This document shows positions 23,005 through 28,580 of a stretch of 64,000 nucleotides of DNA, in pieces. Numbering within the stretch: the first letter of the stretch is position 1; the number at the start of each line of letters is the position of its first letter. The position numbers and the translations under genes are program-made. The notes beneath the pieces are model-generated. The model was not told the origin of the DNA. It saw only the letters and a program-made list of their open reading frames with translations, and searched no databases. This DNA is from Bacillus sp. REN16 (GTDB lineage Bacteria; Bacillota; Bacilli; Bacillales; Bacillaceae_L): assembly GCF_020731355.1 (NCBI RefSeq), contig NZ_JAJFZK010000006.1, positions 124,001 to 188,000 of the forward strand, written 5' to 3'.

Positions 23005-23889
23005 ATGAGAACTGAACAAGAAATGATGGAATTAATTATGGATGTTGCAAGGAAAGACGAACGAATACGAGCGGTGTATATGAATGGCTCAAGAACAAAC
23101 CCGACTGTTCCTAAAGACATTTTTCAAGATTACGATATTGTATATGTAGTTACGGAAACGGAATCTTTTATTAAGGATGAGGGATGGATACATATTTTTG
23201 GTGATTTACTTATAGCACAGGAACCTGATAGAAGGGATCAACAATTTTTTGATGACAAATCAGATAGTTTTCAATCGTATGGGTATTTAATGCTTTTCAC
23301 TGATGGAAATCGAATCGATCTACATATTGATACTATAGATAAGATGCTTAAGGATTATGGAAAAGACAAACTCACTATTCCATTATTTGATAAAGACAAT
23401 ATTTTACCTTTGATTCCTGCCCCAACAGATAATGATTATCATGTAAAAAAGCCAACTGAATTCATGTATTATAGTTGTTGTAATGATTTTTGGTGGTGTT
23501 TGCAGAATGTAGCAAAAGGAATTTGGCGTGATGAGCTACCATATGCGAAACAAATGTTTGAAGTTGTGATCAGGGAACGTTTAGATGAAATGATTTCATG
23601 GTGGATTGGCTGTGAGACTGATTTCAAAATCTCTGTAGGAAAAATGGGAAAGTATTTTAAAAAGTATCTACCTGAAACCTATTGGAAGATGTATAAAAAA
23701 ACGTATTCAGATCATGATTATGATCATTTTTGGAACTCTATATTTATCACGTGTGGTTTATTTAGCACCATAGCAAAAGAAGTTGCGGATCACTTATCGT
23801 TTACTTATACAGGTGAAGATGACCATAACATGTCCGAATATTTAATCCACGTTAGAAATTTACCATCGGATGCCAATGAAATATATTAA
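23005..23889 (+). CDS. aadK: Aminoglycoside 6-adenylyltransferase (AadK-like)
   Basis: A 294-residue nucleotidyltransferase of the ANT(6) group that adenylates streptomycin at O-6. The catalytic motif is MNGSRTNP followed by DYDIVYVV (GSxxN...DxD), and the typical SYGYLMLFTDGNRIDLHI and NDFWWCLQNVAKGI segments follow. Length matches chromosomal AadK of B. subtilis (~284). ATG follows AAGGAG. The isoprenoid synthase gene starts 69 bp downstream on the same strand with no terminator between, so cotranscription is possible. Resistance is predicted from family only. Confidence 0.9.
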   Translation: MRTEQEMMELIMDVARKDERIRAVYMNGSRTNPTVPKDIFQDYDIVYVVTETESFIKDEGWIHIFGDLLIAQEPDRRDQQFFDDKSDSFQSYGYLMLFTDGNRIDLHIDTIDKMLKDYGKDKLTIPLFDKDNILPLIPAPTDNDYHVKKPTEFMYYSCCNDFWWCLQNVAKGIWRDELPYAKQMFEVVIRERLDEMISWWIGCETDFKISVGKMGKYFKKYLPETYWKMYKKTYSDHDYDHFWNSIFITCGLFSTIAKEVADHLSFTYTGEDDHNMSEYLIHVRNLPSDANEIY

Positions 23890-23958: not shown

Positions 23959-26322
23959 ATGAATGTTGGATTAAGAATGACTGCCGAAAAAAGTTATCAG
24001 TTAGCTGAAAAGAAGGCAACTCAGTATTTTCAAGTACTGTATAAAAATGTCAAGGACAAGAGTTATGTTCAAAGCCTTACGCAGGACATCGGCTCTTGGA
24101 AGCAACAGCATATTCATCGATCACTACTTCCAATACGTAACAGTGCGAATAGAAAAAACGATTATAATAGTTATATCAGATGGCTGAATTATACCGGAAG
24201 ATTAGATCGATACTTAGATCGTAGTATCTCATATATTTTTATGAGAGACATGGGTAAAGACATCAATGCCATCGAAACACAAACAAGAATTGCCAACGTG
24301 GTTACTAGTTTGAAGAACCACCTACTCAAAACAACTTCTAAAGGCAAGAGCGAAGAATCGGAAATAAGTACTATGGCAGGATTGTATAAGTGGGGTAAAA
24401 GGGAAGGTATTGAATCCACCATTATTTGGCTGATGGATAGACTAATTTCTGTATCTAGAAATATACCGGAGGGAATGGATGCAACACATGCAAGAAGAAA
24501 ATTAATAAAAATCATCGCTGGTGTTGTCATCAATGAGATGGAAAAAATGGAAGAAAACCTCTCGTTAAAAAGTCGTACAAACAAACTAGATATAGCTATC
24601 CGACTAGGCTATGCTTACGGGCTCACTTATCCTTTTATTGATGACCTTTTAGATGCCAATGTTTTATCTGATGCGGAAAAGAAGAAATATTCAAATTTAA
24701 TACGCACAACTCTGTTAACCGAGTCTGTACCACCATTGGGGGAATGGCCGGGTGAGAACAAGAAATTACTAGAATTTGTTCATTCGGAACTTACAGAAGC
24801 CTTCCATTTCATAAAGGAACAACAGTCCGAAGAGACCATACATACCTTTTTCGAACAATCCTACGTATTTTTTCATTCACAAGAAGTAGACAGGGACAAA
24901 GAACTTTCGAATAAAACATATACGAATGAAGAGTTATATATACCCATAATAATTAAATCAGCTTCTTCTCGTCTAATTGTTCGGTCATTAATTCGTGCCA
25001 CCGAAGATGAAGATATTGACAATCGGACTTTCTATTATGGAATCTACAATCAGCTTGCAGATGATTTTGCAGATCTATCCTCCGACATGGAGGAGGGTGC
25101 AGTAACCCCATATACGTATTATTTAAAACATCACAAGAAACGATCGGATTTAGTAAACCCTTATGAACTATATTGGGCTGTCATTTCTTATTTGATCCAT
25201 AACGTGTATGATTCCGATCCAAAAGCCTGTGAAATCATCTTGGACCGAGCTATTAACGGCTTGAAACGATTTAAAAAACGGGTCGGAAGTAAAGTGTATG
25301 ATGAGGTAATGGAGACTTTTGCGAAAGGGAATCCAACCTTTAATCGTTTGATTCAGAAAATGGTTCAAAAAGCAGATGATGTTGATTTCTTTGATAAACT
25401 TTTGCGTGATCATATGGTTACCAATTTGAAAAATGAACGCAAAGACCAGGAAGATTTTTCTGAGTTGATTGATGAGGTGCGGACAAAGATAAATGATCTT
25501 TTACATCTTAATAATAAAGATAAGGATATTTCATCGATAACAGATGCAGTAAATTACAGCCTTGAGGGAGACGGGAAGAGGCTGAGACCTATCGTGGCTT
25601 GGATAATGACTGTTAAGGAATATGGAATAGATGAAAAATGGATCGCGCCACTTTTGAAGTCAATCGAGTACATGCATACAGCATCATTAATCTATGACGA
25701 TTTGCCTTCACAGGATAATGCAGCGTTTCGACGCGGGCAAGAAACCGTCCATCAGGTATATAACGTTGCTGTTGCTGAATTAACAGGGCTTTATCTAACT
25801 CAAAAAGCGATTTTAGAGCAAGCCTCACTTTCTCATTTCAATACGGAAATAGTACTTAAGTTAATCCAATACACAGCTGCGTGCACGATGGATATGTGCA
25901 AAGGTCAAGCGCTGGATTTAGAGTCCAAAGGAAAACAATTATCCTTAGAACAACTAAACCAGATGTGCTTTTTAAAAACGGGTAAGGGTTTTGAGGCTGC
26001 GCTCATTATGCCTTCCATTCTCGCAAATGCGGATAGAATAGAAATCGAAGCTTTAAAAAAGTTTGCGTATCACGCGGGAATTGCCTTTCAAATTAAGGAT
26101 GATTTATTAGATGTGGAAGGCACAATAGATGTACTTGGAAAATCGGTTGGTAAAGATATGGAAAACAATCATTCTACGTTTGTTTCCATCCTCGGAATCG
26201 ATGATGCCAAAAAAGAGATGTGGGAACATTATTGTTTCGCGACAGAGGCATTACAAGAGATTAAACCAAAAACTTCATTCTTATATCAAATATTGAATTA
26301 TTTTGTTCATAGAGTACATTGA
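23959..26322 (+). CDS. Two-domain class I isoprenoid synthase (prenyltransferase fused to a second isoprenoid-synthase-like domain)
   Basis: A 787-residue all-helical cytosolic protein. The C-terminal half (~500-787) is a full trans-polyprenyl synthase: GDGKRLRP (538-545), first Asp-rich motif DDLPSQD (580-586) with RRG after it, KTG (673-675) and second Asp-rich motif KDDLLD (713-718). The N-terminal half (~1-490) has no clear family match by eye but carries FIDDLLD (227-232) and LADDFAD (366-372), 140 residues apart, almost the spacing in the C-terminal half (134). That suggests a second class I isoprenoid fold, either a cyclase or a degenerate partner. Single-domain bacterial synthases are ~300 residues. 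It may make and then use a prenyl diphosphate; product unknown. Confidence 0.8.
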   Translation: MNVGLRMTAEKSYQLAEKKATQYFQVLYKNVKDKSYVQSLTQDIGSWKQQHIHRSLLPIRNSANRKNDYNSYIRWLNYTGRLDRYLDRSISYIFMRDMGKDINAIETQTRIANVVTSLKNHLLKTTSKGKSEESEISTMAGLYKWGKREGIESTIIWLMDRLISVSRNIPEGMDATHARRKLIKIIAGVVINEMEKMEENLSLKSRTNKLDIAIRLGYAYGLTYPFIDDLLDANVLSDAEKKKYSNLIRTTLLTESVPPLGEWPGENKKLLEFVHSELTEAFHFIKEQQSEETIHTFFEQSYVFFHSQEVDRDKELSNKTYTNEELYIPIIIKSASSRLIVRSLIRATEDEDIDNRTFYYGIYNQLADDFADLSSDMEEGAVTPYTYYLKHHKKRSDLVNPYELYWAVISYLIHNVYDSDPKACEIILDRAINGLKRFKKRVGSKVYDEVMETFAKGNPTFNRLIQKMVQKADDVDFFDKLLRDHMVTNLKNERKDQEDFSELIDEVRTKINDLLHLNNKDKDISSITDAVNYSLEGDGKRLRPIVAWIMTVKEYGIDEKWIAPLLKSIEYMHTASLIYDDLPSQDNAAFRRGQETVHQVYNVAVAELTGLYLTQKAILEQASLSHFNTEIVLKLIQYTAACTMDMCKGQALDLESKGKQLSLEQLNQMCFLKTGKGFEAALIMPSILANADRIEIEALKKFAYHAGIAFQIKDDLLDVEGTIDVLGKSVGKDMENNHSTFVSILGIDDAKKEMWEHYCFATEALQEIKPKTSFLYQILNYFVHRVH

Positions 26323-26328
26323 AAAATG

Positions 26329-26358
26329 GCCTGCCCAAGATTAGGGCGGGTATTTTTT
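26329..26358 (+). terminator. Terminator after the isoprenoid synthase
   Basis: GCCTGCCC/GGGCGGGT 8-bp stem with G-T pairs, 7-nt loop, T7. Confidence 0.85.
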
Positions 26359-26467
26359 TGATTCTCCCCATTTCCTAGGTAAAAGCACATTTTATAGGTA
26401 CAAGTTGAAAGGCGTAAGCCTAAAGAATAGGATGCTAGTAGCCTATGAATAAGGAGTGATTTTAAAG

Positions 26468-26905
26468 ATGTATTATTACGATCCTAACGCATATTACACA
26501 GATAACGATTATTATGACGAATATGAAAGACAAATGGGGTCATTTTTCCCGCCATTTGGAGGAGGCCCTATGGGTCCACCATTTGGACCGCCAAGTCAAG
26601 GACCAGGAGGAGGGCCGCCATTTGGATCACCAGGTCAAGGACAAGGAGGAGGACCACCAACAGCACCGCCACCATCGTTTGTTCCCACACAATCTCAACA
26701 AGCACAAGCCTTCGCAGTTGATCCTGGAAGTATTCGAGGTTGCTTATTCAGATATACCTATGTCTGGTTAAGAGGTCGTGAGCAGTTCTGGTTCTATCCA
26801 ACATTTGTCGGGAGAAGGTCTGTCTCCGGGTATAGATGGAATGGCTTTAGATGGGTTTATTTCGGAATAAGCCTACGCCAAATCCAATCGTTTACTTGTT
26901 TTTAA
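26468..26905 (+). CDS. Tyr-rich, Gly/Pro-rich protein with conserved C-terminal domain
   Basis: A 145-residue protein; ATG 26468 follows AAGGAG. It starts with a Tyr/Asp cluster (MYYYDPNAYYTDNDYYDEY), continues with a low-complexity Gly/Pro/Gln tract containing repeated GPPFG and GQGGGPP units (~24-70), and ends in a compact aromatic/basic domain (~90-145: RYTYVWLRGREQFWFYP, VGRRSVSGYRW) with one Cys at each end (RGCLF and SFTCF). No signal peptide. Such composition is seen in spore-coat or surface proteins of Bacillus; the C-terminal domain is one I do not recognise. Monocistronic. Confidence 0.78.
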   Translation: MYYYDPNAYYTDNDYYDEYERQMGSFFPPFGGGPMGPPFGPPSQGPGGGPPFGSPGQGQGGGPPTAPPPSFVPTQSQQAQAFAVDPGSIRGCLFRYTYVWLRGREQFWFYPTFVGRRSVSGYRWNGFRWVYFGISLRQIQSFTCF

Positions 26906-26963: not shown

Positions 26964-27088
26964 GCAGTATAGAAAAGCCGTTAAGTTAATAATTCTATTA
27001 TTGGGTTAATTTCCTTTGTATTTATAAAGGAATTTATCAATATTTGTAGAATGTAGGTTTTGTAAGCTTTAGATATGAGGTGGTAAAT

Positions 27089-27823
27089 TTGGCGAGTAAC
27101 CATAAAAAGAGAGCCTTAGAAGCAGCCCAACTTTTTATTCGAAAAAATTATCCGAATTGTCATGCAGCCCTTTTAGCAGGAAGTGTAACAAGAAGAGAAG
27201 CAACAGAAACATCTGATCTTGATATCGTTGTTTTTGATAAGAATATTCACTCTTCTTATAGAGAATCCTTAATTGAATTCGGATGGCCTATCGAGGTTTT
27301 TGTACATAATGAAATATCGTATAAGAAGTTTTTTGAAGCGGATAAAAAACGAGCAAGGCCATCAATGCCAAGAATGATTTACGAAGGCATTGTTCTTAAG
27401 GATGATGGAATACTTGATTCAATAAAGAATGAAGCTAAGGAAATTTTAAGCAATGGACCGGATGAATGGACAAGAGAAACAATAGATTTGAAAAGATATT
27501 TAATAACGGACACTCTCGATGATTTCATTGGCTCTGAACGAAGAGAAGAAGGAATATTTATCGCCAACAGTCTTGCAGAAATGACTAGCGAATTTGTCTT
27601 AAGAACAAATCGTAAATGGGTCGGGTCCTCAAAATGGGTATATCGATCCCTAAAAGAATTTGACGAAGGGTTCGCAAGTCATTTTGTTTCTGCATTTAAC
27701 TCTTACTATATAAGCGAAGATAAATCCAATGTTATTCAATTAGTTGATGATATTTTACAACCGTATGGTGGGCGTTTATTTGAGGGATTTTCACTTGGAA
27801 AAACTAATGATGGGGGTAGTTGA
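27089..27823 (+). CDS. Nucleotidyltransferase-domain protein
   Basis: A 244-residue protein of the Pol-beta-like nucleotidyltransferase superfamily. TTG 27089 follows GAGGTGG; the GTG at 27080 is inside that site. The active site is LLAGSVTRREATETSDLDIVVF (split: GS at ~30, then DLD), with a third Asp likely later. The rest is helical. It is first of four same-strand genes (methyltransferase, HAD, VOC) with gaps of 1-17 bp, so an operon. Related proteins include aminoglycoside-type adenylyltransferases and minimal NTases; the substrate here is unknown. Confidence 0.85.
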   Translation: MASNHKKRALEAAQLFIRKNYPNCHAALLAGSVTRREATETSDLDIVVFDKNIHSSYRESLIEFGWPIEVFVHNEISYKKFFEADKKRARPSMPRMIYEGIVLKDDGILDSIKNEAKEILSNGPDEWTRETIDLKRYLITDTLDDFIGSERREEGIFIANSLAEMTSEFVLRTNRKWVGSSKWVYRSLKEFDEGFASHFVSAFNSYYISEDKSNVIQLVDDILQPYGGRLFEGFSLGKTNDGGS

Positions 27824-27824
27824 T

Positions 27825-28580
27825 ATGGCAAATGATATCTTGAAAAACAACAAAAAGAGCTGGGACATAGTGGCACATCATTTTAATGGGAAGGACGCAC
27901 TTCCAAGTTATGGTCCGTTTACACAAACTGAGGATGAGTTGGGCCTGTTTGAGAATTTATCACTTAAGAGAGTACTTGATATAGGTTGAGGGAGCGGGCA
28001 TTCATTAAAATACATGGCAGAAAAAGGAGCGGATGAATTATGGGGAGTAGATTTGTCACAAAATCAAATTGCTACCGCGAAAGAAACATTAAAAGGGTTA
28101 AAACCTAAATTGTTTTGCGCACCAATGGAGGATGATATTGGCATAACGAAGAAACATTTTGATTTAGTCTATTCCATTTATGCGATTGGTTGGACAACGA
28201 ATCTATTTGCAACCTTTAAGCTCATCCATTCATATTTGAAGTCAGGTGGCTATTTCATATTCAGTTGGGATCACCCATTATATCCTCACCTAAAAAGCGA
28301 AAGTGGACGCATTTATTTGGACGGCTCATATCAACAAGAAAAAGCGATGACTTACAACAAGTTCAAGGGTGAAAATGCACCGATGTTCATTCCAACACGA
28401 AAAATGAGTACATATATCAATGAATTAATAAAAGTTGGTTTTACAATTGAAAAGGTAATTGAAAGTGATGTATCTGAGTCCTTTGATTTAATTGACGATG
28501 AGGTTTCTGATCGTTATTATTCTTTATACAAAGCAAGAAGATTTCCAACAACAATGATTATTAAAGCTCGTAAACTTTAA
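27825..28580 (+). pseudogene. SAM-dependent methyltransferase gene interrupted by an in-frame TGA
   Basis: ATG 27825 follows GGGGGTAG and starts 2 bases after the preceding stop. The frame reads ...VLDIG, then TGA (27987-27989, codon 55), then GSGHSLKYMAEKG..., which is the SAM-binding motif I of class I methyltransferases with the expected Cys (usual LDIGCGSG) replaced by stop. Downstream the frame is open for another 197 codons with intact features (WGVDLSQNQI, FDLVYSIYAIGW, SGGYFIFSWDHP). A single base change of TGC/TGT explains it. It is probably nonfunctional unless read through; a sequencing error is possible. A fragment from ATG 28014 lacks motif I. Confidence 0.85.

Follow-up and report, generated by a model that had tools for sequence, protein, structure and literature searches.

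We analysed a 64,000-nucleotide stretch of Bacillus sp. REN16 (the window; contig NZ_JAJFZK010000006.1, positions 124,001 to 188,000) and found that one of its genes probably encodes a self-supplying bacterial terpene synthase. The open reading frame (ORF) lies at 23959..26322 on the forward strand, as do all features of the gene given below, begins with ATG and encodes 787 residues: an N-terminal class I terpene-synthase-like domain (residues 1-490, 23959..25428) followed by a C-terminal trans-prenyltransferase domain (residues 491-787, 25429..26319). The C-terminal domain would make a prenyl diphosphate longer than C15, and the N-terminal domain would turn it into a terpene. A sequence-only reading of this DNA had proposed a fusion of two class I isoprenoid-synthase-like domains, a prenyltransferase joined to a cyclase. 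The finding is real, the N-terminal half being recognized by its predicted fold, and that reading was largely right: the fold and the invariant aspartate motifs of the N-terminal half support it, with cyclisation itself a step that we infer.

The C-terminal half looks, by its sequence, like an active prenyltransferase. Residues 527-759 match PF00348 (expect value, E, of 3.5e-51 for the whole protein; 174.3 bits, cut-off 27), the NCBIfam model that scores highest is the farnesyl diphosphate (FPP) synthase FPPsyn (NF045485; 227.1 bits, below the cut-off of 275), and the AlphaFold2 (AF2) model of the full-length protein matches FPP and other prenyl diphosphate synthases in fold comparison (TMt up to 0.92). 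Conservation was followed in 63 distinct sequences, namely the window, 43 loci (L031-L073) and 19 sequences from L005-L030, with identical ones dropped. The C-terminal motifs lie where they were first read. GDGKRLRP at 537-544 includes the isopentenyl diphosphate (IPP)-binding element GKRLRP (539-544, 25573..25590; GKxxRP in 60 of the 63), and the first Asp-rich motif DDLPSQD (580-586, 25696..25716), the RRG that follows it (591-593) and the second Asp-rich motif DDLLD (714-718, 26098..26112, within KDDLLD 713-718) are each present in 63/63. The remaining motifs are nearly as constant (KT in 63, GQxxDL in 62, GKxxGxD in 57). This half combines an above-threshold profile match with both Asp motifs, GKxxRP, RRG, KT and GQxxD, as expected of a trans-isoprenyl diphosphate synthase (IDS; PF00348). 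Five residues ahead of the first Asp motif, at A575 (25681..25683), all 63 members have Ala. We take this position to be the one that limits chain length in Bacillus FPP synthase, where small residues lengthen the product, so a C20 to C25 product may be expected. Two further PF00348 genes in the same genome carry Tyr (L002, IspA-like by motif) and Ala (L001) at this position. At residue 579 (25693-25695), which immediately precedes the first Asp motif, all 63 fusions have Phe or Tyr. His stands there in each of the 29 single-domain enzymes, out of 31, that were retrieved with a pattern allowing H, S, Y, F or N.

Whether the N-terminal half might instead have an unrelated fold was checked by modelling. 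Its AF2 model (predicted local distance difference test, pLDDT, 85.7; predicted template modelling score, pTM, 0.86) has the class I isoprenoid-synthase fold (alpha terpenoid-synthase fold), with terpene synthases nearest; residues ~88-490 match terpene synthase folds and residues 1-87 form extra helices. The closest fold is that of the bacterial ent-kaurene synthase BjKS (4xlx), at ~9% identity. The two proteins are alike in the predicted alpha-domain fold and in the place of the first Asp motif, as D228 falls at BjKS residue 74-78, beside D75, when interpolated from the fold-alignment ranges. They differ in the fused prenyltransferase, the additional N-terminal helices and the lack of an NSE triad in the protein described here.

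Residues 1-490 alone gave a sub-threshold Pfam match to PF00348 (residues 279-378; 17.6 bits where 27 is required, E 0.0024), a chance-level match to one other family, and no NCBIfam match at E <= 10. The large terpene synthases of the YtpB / DUF2600 type belong to the same kind of host (Bacillus). Their family, PF10776, does not match the fusion protein at E <= 10 and is represented in this genome by a separate gene on another contig. Searching PDB sequences with the N-domain profile returned six matches up to E 10, of which five are unrelated and one is a heptaprenyl synthase (E 2.3). We considered and rejected the idea that the N-terminal half is a duplicated prenyltransferase: profile comparison of the two halves gave a probability of 0.4 over 20 columns, and hhalign against a prenyltransferase set of 36 rows, in which five C-terminal halves of the fusion family were added to 31 single-domain enzymes, gave a probability of 5.6, with the first N-terminal motif paired with their second. 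In hmmsearch with the same 36 rows the best N-terminal half scored 8.5 bits and that of the window 4.7, and 17 of the 63 exceeded the best of 630 shuffles (5.3 bits); kinship to prenyltransferases at the sequence level is at most suggestive.

The two aspartate motifs of the N-terminal half would form its metal site. The first, D228-D229-L-L-D232 (24640..24654), lies within FIDDLLD at 226-232, rather than 227-232 as first given; the second, D368-D369-x-x-D372-x-x-x-D376 (25060..25086), overlaps LADDFAD, which was correctly placed at 366-372. The likeness in spacing also held, at 140 residues (D228 to D368) against 134 in the C-terminal half (580 to 714), first Asp to first Asp. Conservation in orthologues, which had been named as a check, is complete: all seven aspartates are identical in 63/63 members, while 23 of the 33 Asp in the window's N-terminal half are not invariant. 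At least two DDxxD motifs occurred in 15 of 2000 shuffles of this half. Invariant positions number 72 of 490 in the N-terminal half and 53 of 297 in the C-terminal half. The second motif does not follow the (N/D)Dxx(S/T)xxx(E/D) pattern of class I terpene synthases, with Asp (D372) at the S/T position in 63/63; DDxxDxxxD is present in every member, and the canonical NSE pattern matched one N-terminal half of 63, at a site that is not necessarily that of the second motif.

This IDS-type second motif is also what favors an alternative in which the N-terminal domain is catalytic as a second prenyl-transferring enzyme, joining the chain from the C-terminal domain to a different acceptor, or else to a second prenyl diphosphate, in an irregular or head-to-head coupling. 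PF00348 matches 20 of 44 N-terminal halves (the window and the 43 loci) at E <= 1, with a best value of 1.5e-4. Within Q308-E-V-D-R312-D-K314 (24880..24900), Q308-D311 resembles the prenyltransferase GQxxD element by eye, and K333-S334, in the KSxxSR segment K333-S334-x-x-S337-R338 (24955..24972; 63/63), resembles the KT element; no profile comparison supports either register. Q308 is invariant in the 44-row and 65-row alignments (the latter being the 63 sequences and two stand-alone relatives described below), and R312 and K314 in the 63 rows. The IPP-binding motifs GKxxRP and RRG are found in none of the 63 N-terminal halves. The helix that leads up to the first Asp motif does hold an invariant group of basic residues (R180, K181 and K184 in RKLIK, residues 180-184, 24496..24510; 63 members), which speaks for this alternative and leaves some doubt about that absence. 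We regard a second prenyl-transferring enzyme as unlikely. A prenyl diphosphate lyase, which would ionise the diphosphate and yield only linear terpene alcohols or alkenes, would share the same anatomy, and the missing NSE triad and lack of a tailoring cluster are in keeping with it. The 72 invariant N-domain residues fit a shaped pocket, and a lyase appears rather improbable, although sequence cannot tell it from a cyclising enzyme.

Two relatives from other Bacillota, without a prenyltransferase half, align to the N-terminal domain, indicating that the domain family also exists by itself. L083 (genome G194) is a complete ORF of 411 residues (L083:1477-2712, reverse strand), and P0002 (L081, genome G450) is a fragment of 397 residues cut off by the end of its contig. 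Its last 32 residues recur on a second contig, where, provided that this is the same gene, 19 more precede a stop. Eight residues are identical in all 65 rows (D228, D232, Q308, Q365, D368, D369, D372 and D376), and D229 is Asn in both stand-alone proteins (YTDNxxDD). Neither has an NCBIfam match, nor P0002, the one run against Pfam, a match there. A PDB sequence search with a profile of the two returned five matches, one a geranyltranstransferase at E 0.81. Searching further for the stand-alone type, we found matches in seven of 299 genomes (two of the stand-alone type and five fusions) and, in the class of G194, in one of 13, G194 itself. L083 sits between two ORFs that look transposase-like by eye, which suggests mobility.

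The full-length AF2 model joins the two domains by a predicted single helix (residues 478-515, 25390..25503), with D479, K480, L481, R483 and D484 near its start invariant in 44 rows. Such a conserved joint to an active-looking prenyltransferase might befit a non-catalytic partner that sets the chain length or assembly of the C-terminal domain, like the non-catalytic subunits of two-component prenyltransferases, but the seven aspartates invariant in 63/63, needless for a scaffold, and the two relatives that lack a prenyltransferase half make this very improbable.

The reading that we favor is the self-supplying terpene synthase. In this scheme, IPP and an allylic starter would enter the C-terminal domain, which would add IPP units until the all-trans prenyl diphosphate exceeds C15, with C20 or C25 the most likely length. 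The diphosphate would pass to the N-terminal domain and be bound through Mg2+ held by D228/D229/D232 and D368/D369/D372/D376. Its ionisation there would release a terpene, probably a cyclic one.

The sequence-only reading had presented such a fusion as unusual in bacteria, which understates its spread; it is not rare among relatives, and the fused gene recurs in many kindred spore formers. The 43 loci were retrieved from a contig collection, and in all of them the match spans residues 16-785 or more. They come from Bacillus, Fredinandcohnia, Neobacillus, Metabacillus, Lysinibacillus, Ureibacillus, Aquibacillus, Oceanobacillus, Gracilibacillus, Paenibacillus and records named only at higher rank. 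The N-terminal half alone matched 27 of 100 genomes (the source genome included), in every case within an open frame of 776-859 residues. Among 398 genomes drawn from the phylum, nine matched the N-domain profile: the source genome, seven other fusions and one fragment of another kind. In those seven (frames of 797-841 residues, one, in G223, outside the class) the second N-domain motif is intact, as are the three prenyltransferase motifs checked; the first N-domain motif reads DDLLD in six and DDILD in one (L080). Across the 63 sequences, the pairwise identity of one half tracks that of the other (correlation 0.92; means of 59% and 64% for the two halves). The fusion is stable across relatives. 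A tree built from the window and the 43 loci gathers the 18 Paenibacillus rows into a single starred group and places the window with Bacillus timonensis AF060A6 and Bacillus sp. HNG. Of 348 plasmid records that match at E <= 1e-5, not one reaches 80% coverage of the query; in the 20 matches listed, alignment begins only from residue 479 on, that is, in the prenyltransferase half.

Fungal chimeric prenyltransferase–terpene synthases (PTTS), such as the fusicoccadiene synthase PaFS, are single chains with the synthase-type domain first and the trans-prenyltransferase last, and the protein described here is alike in this order, its class I domain being assigned by predicted fold. The lengths are similar (787 residues against the ~700 chosen in PMC8307374). 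A difference is that the N-terminal half here is unmatched above cut-off in Pfam and NCBIfam. The same paper (2021) uses DDXXD/E and NSE/DTE as the synthase-domain motifs of PTTS and describes these enzymes as occurring only in fungi. Here DDXXD/E is present in 63/63, the second metal motif is DDxxDxxxD in place of NSE/DTE, and the gene is that of a prokaryote, with relatives in Bacillota, a fungal link having been sought via Pfam and PDB. Since it departs from PTTS in the NSE/DTE motif and in origin, we do not file it in that family despite its similar presumed working. The joint differs too: a predicted helix here, and in PaFS, according to PMC8190136, a flexible linker of ~70 residues (345-413, with prenyltransferase density from 414). 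IDS-like terpene synthases of insects and fungi likewise have a second Asp motif of the prenyltransferase type (MliILTPS1) or show changes in the IPP-binding motifs; those enzymes are close sequence relatives of prenyltransferases, whereas this N-terminal half falls below the PF00348 cut-off and is fused to one. IPP-binding-motif substitutions in insects go with a change to synthases (PMC10962984), and MliILTPS1 has a conserved SARM yet acts like the other synthases studied (PMC7484799). Among the matches listed in open PMC literature (titles and abstract starts; subscription papers and preprints outside scope), no bacterial prenyltransferase–synthase chimera appeared; a synthase fused to a truncated (E)-4-hydroxy-3-methylbut-2-enyl diphosphate (HMBPP) reductase is the subject of PMC11574762.

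A wider proposal, to which we give an even chance, is that the family is a new lineage of bacterial chimeric terpene synthases, independent of the fungal one, in which a class I family with a DDxxD and DDxxDxxxD site, also found stand-alone, was fused in Bacillota to a C20-C25 prenyltransferase; a single protein, without any gene cluster, would then let spore-forming bacteria turn C5 units into di- or sesterterpenes of their own. If so, chimeric synthases, described as fungi-only in PMC8307374, would have a conserved bacterial version, and Bacillus and Paenibacillus would hold terpene chemistry that family-based genome mining can miss. It would also give an independent example with which to ask why both steps are coupled in one chain, and the helix-joined layout offers a way to test substrate passing. 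The N-terminal metal site itself stands between the prenyltransferase and classical synthase types.

The surroundings of the gene were also compared. The neighbors named earlier were correct (an M6 peptidase, PF05547, 1.5e-13; an aadK-type adenylyltransferase, PF04439, 4.3e-117), but the accessory setting in which they were placed says little, because no neighbor is common to more than 10 of the 44 loci. A gene-cluster reading was rejected on the same comparison, in which no other gene family within ~6 kb passed that count; some loci end early at contig ends, and divergent genes could escape clustering at 1e-8. As no neighbor family is widely common, the fusion gene has the look of a pathway in a single gene, and its product may serve without further tailoring. 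A ComQ-type prenyl modification, which would call for a small ComX-like precursor gene alongside, found no support in a weak test: the largest short-ORF cluster covers five of 44 loci, all close kin, and such precursors may vary too much for this test. A terminator-like hairpin and T-run lies just past the stop codon (26329..26351); such elements number two in the scanned stretch against 1.7 expected from shuffles, weak evidence alone.

Two different nucleotidyltransferase genes flank the fusion gene (23005-23889 and 27080-27823), the aadK-type gene and a weaker Polbeta-like one that falls below the Pfam cut-off. At 26456-26905 lies a Pro/Gly-rich ORF of 149 residues with an aromatic C-terminal part and no Pfam match, whose family occurs in seven of 44 loci, all close kin. 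A methyltransferase appears by eye to be split over two ORFs in different frames (27744-27989 and 28014-28577); in relatives such as L031 it is one ORF of ~251 residues, so the copy in the window seems to be broken. A SelO protein adenylyltransferase gene lies in the flank at six of 44 loci (L038, L039, L044, L045, L065 and L067; PF02696 tested on the L038 copy), and four of these loci (L044, L045, L065 and L067) have it immediately next to the fusion gene, on the upstream or the downstream side depending on the locus.
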